From Streptomyces sp. NBC_01304 (GTDB taxonomy: Bacteria; Actinomycetota; Actinomycetes; Streptomycetales; Streptomycetaceae), in assembly GCF_035975855.1 (NCBI RefSeq), contig NZ_CP109055.1, positions 7,192,001 to 7,256,000 of the forward strand: a stretch of DNA of 64,000 nt. Direction: 5' to 3'. The translations under genes and the position numbers were made by a program. Below are positions 40,048 through 48,891 of this stretch, one piece after another. The notes under the pieces are model-generated. The model was given only the letters and a program-made list of their open reading frames with translations. It searched no databases and was not told where the DNA came from. The stretch's first letter is position 1, and every line of letters starts with the position of its first letter.

Positions 40048-40392
40048 ATGACCGAGACGCTTGACCCCGAGGACCGCAAGATCGTCACCCTGGCCCGCTC
40101 GGCGCGGGCCCGCAACGGCGTGCCCGAGGGCGCGGCCGTGCGTGACGAGACGGGGCGTACGTACGTGGCCGGGACCGTCGACCTCGACTCCCTGAAGCTC
40201 AGCGCGCTGCGCACCGCAGTCGCGATGGCCGTGGCGAGCGGGGCGAAGTCGCTGGAGGCGGCGGCGGTGGTCTCCGAGGCCGGGGCCCTGTCCGAGGAGG
40301 ACCTCTCGGCGGTACGCGACCTCGGCGGGGCGGGGACGCCGGTGCTGCTTGCCGGGGCGGACGCGGCGGTGCGCTCCACGGTCGTCGTCTGA
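40048..40392 (+). CDS. Cytidine-deaminase-like protein lacking zinc ligands
   Basis: A 114-residue protein resembling a small cytidine deaminase (AAVRDETGRTYVAGTVD, then a helix ALRTAVAMAVASGA, then AAAVVSEAG). It contains no cysteine and no histidine at all: the usual (C/H)AE motif reads LSALRTA and PCxxC is absent. It therefore cannot bind the catalytic zinc. Short proteins of this kind lie between corC and era in many actinobacteria (as I recall also in M. tuberculosis), so it is a conserved non-catalytic member of that neighbourhood. Role unknown; it may bind a nucleotide or a partner. Here it is separated from both neighbours by insertions. Confidence 0.78.
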   Translation: MTETLDPEDRKIVTLARSARARNGVPEGAAVRDETGRTYVAGTVDLDSLKLSALRTAVAMAVASGAKSLEAAAVVSEAGALSEEDLSAVRDLGGAGTPVLLAGADAAVRSTVVV

Positions 40393-40445
40393 GCGGACGG
40401 AACGGTGCGCTCCGCCGGGACCGCGTGAGCTCGGCACAACGAACG

Positions 40446-40465
40446 TACTGACTTCTAGATCAGTA
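40446..40465. promoter_or_regulatory. Inverted repeat upstream of the secreted WxL-like locus
   Basis: TACTGA-CTTCTAGA-TCAGTA is a perfect 6-base inverted repeat in the gap between the CDA-like gene and the first secreted-protein gene. It is A/T-rich for this genome and a possible operator. Confidence 0.4.
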
Positions 40466-40478
40466 ACATCCACCACTC

Positions 40479-40504
40479 AAGTCCCTTGAAGAATCAAGGG
40501 ACTT
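40479..40504. terminator. Hairpin, terminator or attenuator
   Basis: AAGTCCCTTGA-AGAA-TCAAGGGACTT is a perfect 11-base stem followed by CCTCTT. It lies 90 bases after the CDA-like stop and 175 bases before the next start. It could end the first transcript or sit in the leader of the second. Confidence 0.6.
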
Positions 40505-40530
40505 CCTCTTGCAATCGCTTTCTATCCGCG

Positions 40531-40539
40531 CATCAATGG
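40531..40539. promoter_or_regulatory. Shared motif CATCAATGG, copy 1
   Basis: CCGCGCATCAATGG here and CCGCACATCAATGG at 41365-41378 are nearly identical words upstream of consecutive secreted-protein genes. They are possible shared promoter or regulator elements; distances to the starts differ (about 140 and 56 bases). Confidence 0.4.
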
Positions 40540-40678
40540 ATGACAGTTCTTTCCGACGGACCGTCAGATAAGAGCCGCCGCGCGGCGTGCCGCACCCCCG
40601 CCCGCGGACGGTCCGCGCACACCCCCAAGCAACCCTTGTGGCGATGGTGTGCGCCTTCCTATCGGAAAAGGGGAAGCG

Positions 40679-41158
40679 ATGAAGCACAGCAGGAAGTTCG
40701 GGATCAGCGCTGCCGCCACCGCGGGAGCGCTGGCCCTGGCCGGCCTCGCCTTCGCACCGGCCGCGGCAGCGGTCGCACCGGGCGCGGCCACGGTAAGCGC
40801 CGACTGCGGTATCTACGGCAGCGGTGAGGCGACCCTCACGGCAACCCAGAGCGGCACCACCGCGACCATCACGGTCACCTCGTCCGAGATCACCACGCCG
40901 GTCGCGGTGGAGGCGAACACCGTCAACTCCACGCTCAAGATGTCCAAGGCCGGCGGCGGGACCGTCGAGTTCACGGGCAGCAGCAACCCCGCGATGCCCG
41001 CCGGCGGCGGGGTCAACTCCGGCCCGCTGACCGGGACCGTCGCCTCCGGCGACACGCTCGACGCCTTCCCGGGCTCGGTGACGCTCGTGGTCATGGGCAT
41101 CAACGTGACCTGCAACTCGACCGGGGCGCAGGCGCCTGGCCCGTTCGTGTTCGACTGA
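40679..41158 (+). CDS. Small secreted beta-rich protein, first gene of a WxL-like locus
   Basis: A 159-residue protein; ATG 40679 has GGGGAAG upstream. A Sec signal peptide of about 35 residues (MKHSRKFGISAAATAG ... PAAAAVAPG) precedes a Thr/Ser/Gly/Val-rich mature part of about 120 residues with two cysteines (SADCGIYG and NVTCNSTG) placed to close a disulfide around a beta-sandwich. The GTV...G..T..FPGSV...C layout resembles the N-terminal module of the next protein. No catalytic motif. It is probably a cell-wall or extracellular partner of the two following proteins. Confidence 0.78.
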   Translation: MKHSRKFGISAAATAGALALAGLAFAPAAAAVAPGAATVSADCGIYGSGEATLTATQSGTTATITVTSSEITTPVAVEANTVNSTLKMSKAGGGTVEFTGSSNPAMPAGGGVNSGPLTGTVASGDTLDAFPGSVTLVVMGINVTCNSTGAQAPGPFVFD

Positions 41159-41303
41159 GCAACCGCCGTTCGACCGGGCAAGCGTCGTTCGGCCGAGTGA
41201 CCGCAGTATCGGCATGACGGACCGGTGTCGCCCCGTGCGGCACCGGTCTCCGGGCTGCCCGCACCTTCGGATGCGTACCAACTGACCTGCGGAAATGCGG
41301 ATC

Positions 41304-41331
41304 TTGACAGCATCTGATGGGTCATCAGGTG
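41304..41331 (+). promoter_or_regulatory. TTGACA box with overlapping palindrome
   Basis: TTGACA (41304-41309) is followed at once by CATCTGATG-GGT-CATCAGGTG, an inverted repeat with one mismatch (41311-41331). A regulator bound here would sit in the -35/-10 spacer of the WxL-like gene. The -10 itself is not clear. Confidence 0.45.
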
Positions 41332-41344
41332 AAGTGTTTCGATT

Positions 41345-41378
41345 CCATTGACTTTTCACATACCCCGCACATCAATGG
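41345..41378. promoter_or_regulatory. Inverted repeat CCATTGA...TCAATGG with shared motif copy 2
   Basis: Perfect 7-base arms are separated by 20 bases, 56 bases before the WxL-like start. The right arm is the CATCAATGG word also found at 40531. Confidence 0.45.
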
Positions 41379-41433
41379 CCCCCGTCGGCGCAGAAGAGCC
41401 GCTGCGCCCGGCATTCACCAGGAGGGGGCAAAC

Positions 41434-42765
41434 ATGCCTTCAGCAAGACGAAGACGCCGCTGGATGGCGGCACTAGGGGTGACCGCGCTCGCGGTCGGGG
41501 CAGGCGGGGCGCTGGCCCCGAACGCCACGGCGCTGGCCACCGCGGCCCAGCAGGTCGAGTTCCCGACCCGCTGTGTGCCGCCGCCGATCGCGGGGATCCC
41601 GCCGATCGAAGGCCCGACCACCGCGGACATCACCGTCGACAACATGACGCCCAAGGTGGGCGACACGGTCAACGTGACGTACAAGGTGGTCAAACCCGCG
41701 GCCAGCAACCCCGTCGACCTCGCCCTGCCCGCTGACATCATGCTGCCCACCGGCAAGGTGACCGTCGGCGGAGCCCAGAGCGGGGACGCGACCGTCGCGG
41801 GGCCCAGGAAGAATCCGCCGGTCGATCCCAAGGGAACGTTCCCGGGCTTCGAGATGACGGGAACCCTGACCCTCACCGCGCCCGGTGAGGTCACCCTGTC
41901 GCCCGGCGACTACAACATCAACACCAACTACATCATGTCGCTCGACACCCCGTGCACGGTGCTCAATCCACCGGCACCGGCCTCGCTGACGCTGAACGTG
42001 GCGCCGGCCGGAAACACCAACCCCCGTTCCCTGCAACTGGGTTCGGCCTCGGGCAAGCCCGGCGACAGCGTGACCGTCACCGGGTCGAAGTTCACCGCGG
42101 GGGCCGAGGTCACCGTGGCGGGCCGGGCCGGGGACACCGAGACGGCCGACAAGAAGACCGTGACGGCCGACGCACAGGGCGGCTTCAGCGCGGCGCTGCC
42201 CGTCAGCGACAAGGCGACGACAGGCATCGTCGCGTACGAAGGAAGTGCCTGGTCCACCAAGAAGGGCGCAGGCCCGGCGGCGTATGTCGTGATCGACGAC
42301 ACCCCCCTCCCCGCCGGCAGCCAGAAGCTCAACTCCTCGGTGAAGGCAGGCACGTTGTCGATGACGCAGGCCGGAGACACCGTCGAGATGACGCCGGTCG
42401 ACTTCGGCCAGGGCGGCTTCTCGCGCGGGTCGCTGCAGACGGTGACGGTCAAGGACTTCCGCGGCGGGCCCGCGGGTTGGTCCCTGACCGGCAAGGTCAC
42501 CGACTTCACCGGTCCCGGCGGAGCGAAGGTCGACGCGTCGAAGCTGGGCTGGACACCGGTCTGCCAGACCAAGGCAGGCTCGCCGAGCACCTGTGCGGCG
42601 GGCTCGCCCGGAACGGTCGGCAGCTCGGGGGCGACCCTCGCGTCCACCCCCAACGCGGCACTCACCGGCGGTGAGTTCACCGTCGACGCCCGGGTCTCGC
42701 TGAAGGTGCCGGAGTTCACGCCACCCGGGGCGTACTCCGGGGTGCTGACGCTCACGCTCACCTGA
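41434..42765 (+). CDS. Secreted protein with C-terminal WxL-like domain
   Basis: A 443-residue protein; ATG 41434 follows GGAGGGGG. The signal peptide spans 1-35 with an Arg-rich start (MPSARRRRRW). An N-terminal beta module (about 40-185) carries two cysteines; a middle Ig/IPT-like repeat runs about 190-290 (SGKPGDSVTVTGSKFTAGAE); and residues 300-443 resemble a WxL domain: GDTVEMTPVDFGQGG, GWSLTGKVTDFTG with Trp349-Ser-Leu351, LGWTPVC with Trp373, and the terminal AYSGVLTLTLT strand. WxL domains attach Gram-positive surface proteins to peptidoglycan without sortase. The next gene encodes a DUF916-like partner, as in Firmicute WxL clusters. The call is by pattern and needs a profile search. 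Confidence 0.72.
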   Translation: MPSARRRRRWMAALGVTALAVGAGGALAPNATALATAAQQVEFPTRCVPPPIAGIPPIEGPTTADITVDNMTPKVGDTVNVTYKVVKPAASNPVDLALPADIMLPTGKVTVGGAQSGDATVAGPRKNPPVDPKGTFPGFEMTGTLTLTAPGEVTLSPGDYNINTNYIMSLDTPCTVLNPPAPASLTLNVAPAGNTNPRSLQLGSASGKPGDSVTVTGSKFTAGAEVTVAGRAGDTETADKKTVTADAQGGFSAALPVSDKATTGIVAYEGSAWSTKKGAGPAAYVVIDDTPLPAGSQKLNSSVKAGTLSMTQAGDTVEMTPVDFGQGGFSRGSLQTVTVKDFRGGPAGWSLTGKVTDFTGPGGAKVDASKLGWTPVCQTKAGSPSTCAAGSPGTVGSSGATLASTPNAALTGGEFTVDARVSLKVPEFTPPGAYSGVLTLTLT

Positions 42766-42849
42766 CGTACATCCCTCTCGGGACGTACGAACGCTTCGAT
42801 CACCAGTGGTGGGCCGCGCACCCGGCCCACCTCCCAGCCGGGGGGACCT

Positions 42850-43797
42850 GTGCGTAGATTCATCTGTCTTCTGTACGTCGCCGTGGCCGCGGTCGGCCTC
42901 CAACTGCTCGCCCCGCCCGCCGCGTACGCCGCCGACAACGGGCGCTGGTCCGTGTACCCGGCCGCGTCCAAGCTGGGCGGGCGCCCGTACTTCTACCTCT
43001 CCGCCGACCCCGGCAGCACGCTCAAGGACAAGGTCACCGTCACCAACAAGGCCGACCGGCCCACGACGTTCCGGCTGTACGGCGCCGACGCGTACAACAC
43101 CGCGCGCGACGGGGGCTTCGCGGTGCGGACGCGGGGCGAGAAGCAGCGCGCGGTCGGGGCATGGGTCCGGCTGGCGAAGTCGAAGGTCACGGTGGCGCCG
43201 GGGAAGTCGGTGACCGTGCCGTTCTCCCTGGCCGTGCCCGAGGGGGCCGAGCCGGGGGATCACCCGGGTGCGATCGTCGCCCTCGACGAGCGGGTCTCCG
43301 GCGGTGAGGGGGACGTGGCGGTCGGGATTCGACGTGCGGTCGGGGCGCGGGTGTATCTGCGGGTCGGCGGGCCGACCGTGGCCGCGCTCGCGGTGGAGGA
43401 CATGCGGATGTCGCGTACGCAGCCGCTGGTGCCCGGGGCCGGGGACAGCACTGCCGTGATCACGTACACGCTGCACAACCGGGGGAATGTGACGCTGAAT
43501 CCCAAGGCGACGTTGCGGGCGGAGGGGTTGTTCGGGCGTACGTTGCTGTCGCGGGAGCTCTCCCGGGTGCCCTCGGAGTTGTTGCCCCGGCAGAAGGTGC
43601 GGCTCACTGAGCGGTGGGTCGGGGCTCCGCAGCTCGATTGGGGCGATGTCACGCTGACGGCTACCGCCGCGTCCGTGCGGACCTCGGGGTCCGCGTCCTT
43701 CTTCGCGTTGCCTTGGCTGGCGGCCGGGGTGCTGGTCGTGGTGCTTGGTGGGGGTGGGTGGCTGTGGGTGGTGCGGCGTCGGCGGCGGGCCTCATGA
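42850..43797 (+). CDS. DUF916-like, membrane-anchored WxL-interacting protein
   Basis: A 315-residue protein; GTG 42850 follows a G-rich ribosome site. Signal peptide 1-27 (ending YAADN); a DUF916-like Ig domain 30-170 (GRWSVYPA, YFYLSADPGSTLKDKVTV, TNKADRPTTFRLYGADAY, VTVAPGKSVTVPFSLAVPEG, HPGAIVALDE); a second beta domain 175-275 (YTLHNRGNVTLNP); and a C-terminal transmembrane helix (about 282-305) with RRRRRAS inside. DUF916 proteins bind peptidoglycan and WxL domains at the cell surface. It lies 84 bases downstream of the WxL-like gene and is probably co-transcribed. Confidence 0.8.
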   Translation: MRRFICLLYVAVAAVGLQLLAPPAAYAADNGRWSVYPAASKLGGRPYFYLSADPGSTLKDKVTVTNKADRPTTFRLYGADAYNTARDGGFAVRTRGEKQRAVGAWVRLAKSKVTVAPGKSVTVPFSLAVPEGAEPGDHPGAIVALDERVSGGEGDVAVGIRRAVGARVYLRVGGPTVAALAVEDMRMSRTQPLVPGAGDSTAVITYTLHNRGNVTLNPKATLRAEGLFGRTLLSRELSRVPSELLPRQKVRLTERWVGAPQLDWGDVTLTATAASVRTSGSASFFALPWLAAGVLVVVLGGGGWLWVVRRRRRAS

Positions 43798-47890: not shown

Positions 47891-47952
47891 ATGGTCACGG
47901 TACGGGGGACGCGCGGTCAGCGGCGAACGGCGGATCGGGGAGAATGGGCGCC

Positions 47953-48891
47953 ATGAGCGCTCCTTCCCCGACCCAACCGACTCACCGCGCGGGCTTCGCC
48001 TGCTTCGTCGGCCGACCCAACGCCGGCAAGTCGACCCTCACCAACGCCCTCGTCGGGACGAAGGTCGCCATCACCTCGAACCGCCCGCAGACCACCCGGC
48101 ACACGGTGCGCGGCATCGTGCACCGCCCGGACGCGCAGCTGATCCTGGTGGACACCCCCGGCCTGCACAAGCCGCGCACGCTGCTCGGCCAGCGCCTGAA
48201 CGACGTCGTGCGCACGACGTGGGCCGAGGTCGACGTGATCGGGTTCTGTGTGCCCGCGAACGAGAAGCTGGGCCCCGGTGACAAGTTCATCGCCAAGGAG
48301 CTCGCGGGGATCAAGAAGACCCCCAAGATCGCTCTCGTCACCAAGACGGACCTGGTCGACTCGAAGACCCTCGCCGAGCAGCTCATCGCCCTCGACCAGC
48401 TCGCCACGGAGCTCGGCTTCGAGTGGGCGGAGATCATCCCGGTCTCGGCGGTCGGCAACACCCAGGTCGACCTGGTCGCCGACCTGATCGTCCCGCTCCT
48501 GCCGGAGAGCCCGCCGCTCTACCCGGAGGGCGACCTCACCGACGAGCCCGAGCAGGTCATGGTCGCCGAGCTGATCCGCGAGGCCGCGCTCGAGGGCGTA
48601 CGGGACGAGCTGCCGCACTCCATCGCGGTCGTCGTCGAGGAGATGATCCCGCGCGAGGACCGCCCGGCGGACAAGCCGCTGCTCGACATCCACGCCTTCG
48701 TCTACATCGAGCGCTCCAGCCAGAAGGGCATCATCATCGGCCCGAAGGGCAAGCGCCTGAAGGACGTCGGCACCAAGTCCCGCAAGCAGATCGAGGCACT
48801 GCTGGGTACGCCGGTCTTCCTCGACCTGCACGTCAAGGTCGCCAAGGACTGGCAGCGCGACCCGAAGCAGCTGCGGAAGCTGGGGTTCTGA
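47953..48891 (+). CDS. era: GTPase Era
   Basis: A 312-residue ribosome-assembly GTPase. Start ATG 47953 (MSAPSPTQP); an ATG at 47944 lies too close to GGGGAGA. G1 GRPNAGKST at residues 20-28; DTPGL and TKTD follow; C-terminal KH domain with IIGPKGKRLKDVG. It binds 16S rRNA near the 3' end, working with YbeY in 30S maturation. The stop lies within a 40-base tandem repeat. Confidence 0.95.
   Translation: MSAPSPTQPTHRAGFACFVGRPNAGKSTLTNALVGTKVAITSNRPQTTRHTVRGIVHRPDAQLILVDTPGLHKPRTLLGQRLNDVVRTTWAEVDVIGFCVPANEKLGPGDKFIAKELAGIKKTPKIALVTKTDLVDSKTLAEQLIALDQLATELGFEWAEIIPVSAVGNTQVDLVADLIVPLLPESPPLYPEGDLTDEPEQVMVAELIREAALEGVRDELPHSIAVVVEEMIPREDRPADKPLLDIHAFVYIERSSQKGIIIGPKGKRLKDVGTKSRKQIEALLGTPVFLDLHVKVAKDWQRDPKQLRKLGF

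Follow-up and report, generated by a model that had tools for sequence, protein, structure and literature searches.

Cell-surface proteins carrying a WxL domain have been described chiefly in Firmicutes. Passages of PMC9772566 assign >91% of 938 WxL sequences to this phylum, those of PMC10599100 place the domain almost entirely in Lactobacillales and Bacillales, and the main texts of both papers name no actinobacteria. In the clusters treated there a small WxL protein, a large WxL protein and a WxL-interacting protein (WxLIP) are found together, and passages of the published work propose that the WxLIP helix inserts into the host membrane, which is ill-suited to a soil genus. WxL and DUF916 proteins are likewise placed in lactobacilli, with the csc clusters of Lactobacillus plantarum, in sections of PMC4449606, and a passage of PMC12537917 has DUF916 adjoining its Ang-2 genes. 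Here we analyse a window of 64,000 nucleotides from Streptomyces sp. NBC_01304 (assembly GCF_035975855.1, contig NZ_CP109055.1, positions 7,192,001 to 7,256,000 of the forward strand), in which three consecutive genes, encoding a small two-cysteine protein (gene 1), a large protein with a C-terminal WxL-like domain (gene 2) and a DUF916 protein (gene 3), lie between a cytidine-deaminase-like core gene (CddL) and era. An initial annotation, made from the letters of this DNA, had called such an actinobacterial version little-studied. The literature searches agree: no account of an actinobacterial WxL locus was found in titles, abstract starts and some passages, subscription papers and preprints being outside the scope. 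One further paper, PMC13317193, was discarded, the string 'WxL' in the part retrieved being a grant number.

Gene 3 and the WxL-like domain of gene 2

All three genes lie on the + strand and have signal-peptide-like N termini as judged by eye, in line with the secreted proteins that had been proposed. Against PF06030 (DUF916) the gene 3 protein scores 34.8 bits, above the curated cut-off of 27.3, and many of its best 120 homologs are already named after WxL or DUF916 in databases. The AlphaFold2 (AF2) model (mean predicted local distance difference test score, pLDDT, 65.6; ten-residue blocks within aa 181-280 averaging 73-91) consists of two immunoglobulin (Ig)-like domains, in agreement with the solved WxLIP. 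Rank 1 of a Foldseek search in the PDB was 9i25_C (E 1.3e-10), an Enterococcus WxLIP solved in complex with a long WxL protein, so that an unrelated fold is excluded. Entries 9i25 and 9i1y of the Enterococcus faecium WxLIP took ranks 1, 3 and 4 with both domains covered, at 13-14% identity, a TM-score of 0.31-0.39 and a root-mean-square deviation (rmsd) of 14-15; VIA aligned 9i25_C to model residues 30-288, and the sequence profile match reached E 0.054 at best. A C-terminal helix (288-314) was assigned by DSSP on the model at a pLDDT of 50-69, its membrane nature being judged from the hydrophobic sequence. The DUF916-like protein with a C-terminal anchor was thus borne out, the anchor being presumably transmembrane, and profile and fold support the assignment of gene 3 as a predicted WxL-interacting protein.

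The PF13731 (WxL) match of gene 2 falls at aa 334-376, on the residues to which the initial annotation had drawn attention, and it had located Trp349-Ser-Leu351, Trp373 and the terminal VLTLTLT strand correctly. Homologs of gene 2 number 736 (E<=0.001), and every named one among the best 120 is from Streptomyces. In an alignment of 34 of these best 120 with the window protein (A1, 35 sequences) the cited residues are invariant in 35/35, except for the last residue of the terminal strand. The domain is C-terminal (aa 291-443 of 443) in a protein with a signal-like N terminus. Relatives recovered with gene 2's own profile exceed the PF13731 cut-off, and a profile of ten orthologous domains taken from A1 (A4) overlaps 34/44 PF13731 matches in a sample of 394 actinomycete genomes, 40 of them Streptomyces. 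Among 31 of 43 actinobacterial WxL-like domains (A6), the first-motif Trp is present in 31/31 and Leu351 in 19/31. Matches to both families therefore exist, PF06030 directly over its cut-off and WxL through relatives, and the sequence-based assignment of the gene 2 C terminus as a WxL-related domain is supported by the relatives that match both profiles.

The AF2 model of gene 2 comprises three beta domains (mean pLDDT 73.4). Its best Foldseek match (E 9.5e-8) is PDB 3lso, a putative membrane anchored protein of Corynebacterium diphtheriae; VIA aligned it over gene 2 residues 39-443 with a TM-score of 0.39-0.40 and an rmsd of 9-12. The gene 2 profile did not recover it by sequence, and it is at most a possible relative. 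For the middle domain, the fold of the enediyne apoproteins (neocarzinostatin, macromomycin) outranks other PDB matches. The domain scores below the sequence cut-off of these apoproteins and is instead embedded in a surface protein, with no sign of a cargo molecule. Single-sequence PDB searches with gene 2 and gene 3 gave nothing at E<=1.

Pairing of WxL-like and DUF916 genes in actinomycetes

In the sample of 394 genomes, 83/129 WxL-like matches (A4 profile) have a DUF916 match within 5 kb, against 0.97 expected from random placement, which upholds the conserved adjacency suggested at the outset. Of these 83, 76 are on the same strand and 71 have DUF916 downstream; within 1 kb the count is 66 (random placement, 0.24). 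Both matches occur in 58 genomes, WxL-like alone in 6, DUF916 alone in 25 and neither in 305 (Fisher p 3e-42, relatedness ignored). Within the Streptomyces part of the sample, DUF916 was matched in 21/40 genomes and the WxL-like domain in 19/40.

The DUF916 stretches were fetched as three sets of 20 out of 134 matches; a WxL-like match was the reason for choosing at least 36 of the first 40, and its absence the reason for the last 20, so the following cargo counts are not those of a random sample. In 34 of 43 proteins with a WxL-like domain (A8; Pfam at E<=0.01), PF13731 was matched in 18 and HtaA in 6, and there is one case each of GH43 with a ricin lectin, metallophosphatase, peptidase S15, peptidase M64 and GH18. 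HtaA is joined to the WxL-like domain in L075, where HtaA scores short of its cut-off, and in five further members, at DUF916 loci of several actinomycetes. Four stretches (L129, L133, L143, L145) encode, directly 5' of DUF916, a protein that is metallophosphatase-like by eye, ends in WLQ and has no WxL-like match.

Synteny at era

Fifteen era-locus copies were compared, the window and 14 fetched Streptomyces stretches. Gene 2 followed by gene 3, with era downstream of gene 3, is common to 15/15; CddL and CorC, plus YbeY and PhoH as far as the stretch extends, are upstream in 14/15, and the one other copy (L064) is rearranged. In the window, gene 2 and gene 3 are spaced by 84 bp, and RidA, a gene for a pyridoxal-phosphate-dependent enzyme and further sequence lie between gene 3 and era. 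An era match was obtained in 25/25 Streptomyces genomes searched. In 15 of the 19 Streptomyces genomes with neither WxL-like nor DUF916 matches the CddL-era gap is <250 bp; in one (G269) it is 819 bp, and the other three have no CddL within 1.5 kb. Apparent remnants at era were seen in two genomes, as gene 1 without gene 2 in G073 (L101) and as a WxL-like domain adjoining era, with no DUF916, in G332 (L109). The locus occupies a conserved site between CddL and era in Streptomyces, and its presence or absence there is a matter of gain or loss, in either direction, because most locus-less genomes join CddL to era and two carry remnants. The insertion in a core cluster that had been claimed is therefore correct as to the site, and both gain and loss would account for it.

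In two copies, L070 (G293:C48) and L072 (G143:C16), no stop codon separates the DUF916 gene from era and the two share one frame, so that a single open stretch would encode DUF916, helix and Era in turn; Era may also be started internally in both. DUF916-Era combinations in certain Streptomyces are mentioned, with no interpretation in the passage concerned, in the Era review PMC10582724, and the frames of L070 and L072 are likely the source of these combinations, for which the locus offers an explanation.

Gene 1, the palindrome and the second DUF916 locus

Gene 1 encodes a small protein with two cysteines, as had been noted, and zero tryptophans. It matched no Pfam or NCBIfam family, was found in 10/15 era-locus copies (window counted) and has 492 homologs; among the best 120, every named one is from Streptomyces, and S. 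avermitilis is one of the names given, as it is for homologs of gene 2. Its identification as a small WxL protein was ruled out, since it is Trp-free and has no profile match. The initial annotation had also proposed that gene 1 resembles the N-terminal module of gene 2. A profile comparison with the whole gene 2 family aligned the signal peptides alone, and a profile built solely from gene 2 modules scored gene 1 proteins at 4.2 bits at best, which is no match. With modules of the sortase-anchored proteins described below added, the hhalign probability was 37%, and with these modules alone 64%. In a shuffle control that kept the first 33 residues unshuffled, real scores of gene 1 family members ran from 24.8 down to 6.8 bits, and 24/26 exceeded the highest among 5200 shuffles (9.9 bits). 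The resemblance is thus retained weakly, and through the sortase-anchored copies, as a composition-controlled likeness in sequence.

A second DUF916 locus is present in the same genome (L007 5932-12801; G000:C1, about 6530000-6537000). Its DUF916 gene, at C1:6533383, scored 29.3 bits in the genome search and, as a whole protein, 26.7 against the cut-off of 27.3. The neighbouring proteins are a module-LPQTG protein, an Ig-like protein in which a membrane segment is visible by eye and a two-module protein with a LAETG-type end, these ends being in part what we take to be sortase signals; genes for a sigma factor, STAS and an ATPase (anti-sigma-like) flank the locus. The N-terminal module of gene 2 recurs there, with hidden Markov model matches of 33, 91 and 32 bits in L007 and an hhalign probability of 99.5% between the modules of the two loci. 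The module, the DUF916 neighbour and an upstream palindrome are thus common to both loci, and at the second one sortase-type signals (LPxTG/LAxTG) replace the WxL domain of gene 2.

The palindrome, CTGA-N7-TCAG, is found in the 350 bp that precede the module in 14/15 era-locus copies, L065 being the exception, against a mean of 0.06 and a maximum of 2 in simulations; these 14 are every match across 258 kb of these loci. A tighter pattern, CTGAYGNGTCRTCAG, has 8 sites in the genome and 0 in the reversed control. One site precedes each DUF916 locus; the other six adjoin reading frames that look unrelated by eye, so that a wider regulon is possible. Second-locus copies in two other Streptomyces (L077, L080) carry the palindrome too. 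The shared element suggests that the era locus and the sortase-anchored DUF916 locus may be under joint control; no paper on such an element was found by title and abstract start. In L060, L066 and L068 the palindrome upstream of the large gene is lengthened by flanking inverted repeats GCCGCA ... TGCGGC. Another palindrome, upstream of gene 1 (40448-40463), was dropped as it was unseen in other copies.

The features are collected in the table below. The initial annotation had opened its interval at 40431, 5' of gene 1, for which the tabulated start is the likeliest.

Table 1. Features of the era locus (window coordinates)
Feature	Position	Strand	Basis or remark
CddL (cytidine-deaminase-like core gene), left boundary	40048..40392	+	weak NCBIfam matches, far below cut-off
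Gene 1, small secreted two-cysteine protein, 159 aa	40679..41158	+	no WxL motif
Palindrome CTGATGGGTCATCAG, operator-like, directly behind TTGACA	41314..41328	+	~106 bp 5' of gene 2 start
Gene 2, large secreted protein, 443 aa	41434..42765	+	module, Ig domain, WxL-like domain
Gene 2 N-terminal module, aa 40-190	41551..42003	+	shared with sortase-anchored proteins of second locus, same genome
Gene 2 middle Ig-like domain, neocarzinostatin fold, aa 194-290	42013..42303	+	structure match
Gene 2 C-terminal WxL-like domain, aa 291-443	42304..42762	+	PF13731 16.7 bits at aa 334-376
First WxL motif, Trp349-Ser-Leu351	codons 42478..42486	+	Trp kept in all aligned orthologs
Distal motif Yxxx(L/I/V)T-[W>L]-x-L, Tyr434 to Leu442	42733..42759	+	Leu440 in place of Trp
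Gene 3, DUF916 / WxL-interacting protein, 315 aa	42850..43797	+	PF06030 match, fold
Gene 3 PGBD / DUF916 domain, aa 45-142	42982..43275	+	PF06030
Gene 3 second Ig-like domain, aa 177-287, at position of WxLIP host-binding domain	43378..43710	+	AF2, VIA
Gene 3 C-terminal helix, presumably transmembrane, with Arg-rich tail, aa 288-314	43711..43791	+	DSSP, hydrophobic sequence
era, right boundary	47944..48891	+	P-loop motif, flanking genes

Discussion

The locus is real and conserved and belongs to a divergent WxL/WxLIP type, for which the DUF916 label already exists in databases. We consider it probable that the era locus encodes an actinobacterial WxL/WxLIP anchoring pair, by which a protein of several domains is exposed on the wall of the hyphae. 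Gene 2 would be exported and, because the Firmicutes model as set out in passages of PMC10599100 and PMC9772566 has such proteins held in this way, would be retained on the wall through its C-terminal domain together with gene 3. The WxL-like domain would bind peptidoglycan non-covalently and pair with the DUF916 domain of gene 3, with the two preceding parts, N-terminal module and Ig-like domain, pointing outward. The C-terminal helix of gene 3 would most simply lie in the bacterium's own membrane. If the DUF916-Era frames of L070 and L072 are translated, the WxLIP helix would be in the cell's own membrane with Era inside, contrary to the host-membrane insertion proposed in the literature. 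The gene 1 product may accompany the pair as a small secreted protein, conceivably a module-like fold in free form.

Several results weigh against this interpretation. The claimed WxL-like domain of the 443-residue protein stood by way of relatives that pass PF13731 and fell short in the protein itself, which scores 16.7 bits against a cut-off of 25 and has no second Trp-x-Leu: the Trp of the distal consensus, YxxxLTWxL in Firmicutes according to a passage of PMC5817068, is present in 0/31 actinobacterial domains and 0/35 aligned orthologs. A PDB sequence search with three profiles recovered no WxL chain, and the WxL-like part of the gene 2 model is of moderate confidence; two PDB structure searches with the full-length model had no WxL chain among the best 50 matches of either, which speaks neither for nor against a WxL fold. 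For gene 3, the DUF3324 profile gave no match at E<=1 (an Ig-like domain lies at that place), though the fold match covers both halves; many Ig-like chains score level with WxLIP on the second domain in VIA. In the genome sample, 46/129 WxL-like matches lack a DUF916 match within 5 kb, 59/134 DUF916 matches have no partner found with the A4 profile, and the second locus has DUF916 and no WxL domain. When 20 of those 59 were rechecked with a broader profile, a WxL-like domain was located within ~1.2 kb of DUF916 in nine (L130, L131, L135, L137, L140, L141, L142, L144, L146; weakly in L131, 21 bits, and L144, 28 bits), opposite-strand matches of 17-19 bits (L136, L147) being left uncounted. The sub-threshold score and the absent second motif would equally suit a generic Ig-like C-terminal domain on gene 2, with gene 3 anchored in the membrane to chaperone or carry the N-terminal module; the second locus, which shares the module and pairs DUF916 with module-LPxTG proteins in place of a WxL domain, points the same way. 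This is nevertheless rather unlikely, since relatives exceed the PF13731 cut-off and DUF916 neighbours elsewhere keep the WxL-like domain while the remainder varies (GH43, metallophosphatase, peptidases, GH18, HtaA).

Nor does the name carried by most of the best 120 gene 2 homologs, 'beta-xylosidase' (a few are called 'WxL domain-containing protein'), make a secreted glycosidase of gene 2 more than barely credible. Pfam and NCBIfam searches revealed no glycosidase family or other enzyme domain in it, the model consists of beta domains, and the GH43 protein of L074, which ends in the same C-terminal domain, may be where the name arose and spread. Quite unlikely, too, is an attachment of the pair to a non-peptidoglycan wall polymer or to the aerial hyphal sheath, or a surface complex for polysaccharide use in place of general display. 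It would suit a soil organism better than the WxLIP host-binding role in PMC10599100, and it would fit the csc clusters that a passage of PMC4449606 proposes for plant polysaccharide use, the GH43 and GH18 partners of the domain in relatives, and the palindrome common with the sortase-anchored locus, which hints at a joint surface programme. Gene 2 itself, however, has no enzyme domain, and the mixed cargo elsewhere indicates general display.

Beyond the anchoring pair at era, a wider picture can be drawn, which we find conceivable without yet favouring it. Actinomycetes may possess a widespread WxL/WxLIP display parallel to sortase, in which enzymes, HtaA domains and scaffolds are tagged for the wall by a transferable one-Trp domain at the C terminus, typically paired with an adjacent membrane-held DUF916 receptor; the Streptomyces era copy would be co-controlled with the sortase-anchored module locus, bringing covalent and non-covalent proteins into one surface complex. 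A frequent actinobacterial branch would separate the essentials of the system (first Trp motif, C-terminal strand, DUF916 partner) from what is dispensable (second Trp, small WxL protein, host binding). Streptomyces, a genetically tractable genus with no animal host, is suited to asking where WxLIP anchors, and a large family in this genus is probably misnamed beta-xylosidase.

Compared with the Firmicutes WxL clusters, as described in passages of PMC9772566 and PMC10599100, the Streptomyces locus has the same arrangement of adjacent secreted genes with a small companion gene, a large protein whose WxL-type domain is C-terminal behind Ig-like domains, and a DUF916 protein that adds a further Ig domain and has a helix at its C terminus. 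Conversely, it has Leu for the Trp of the second motif, its small gene is non-WxL, so that only one WxL-like protein is encoded, and no DUF3324 sequence match is obtained; it belongs to another phylum, stands beside era, and has relatives in which the domain is joined to enzyme and HtaA cargo.

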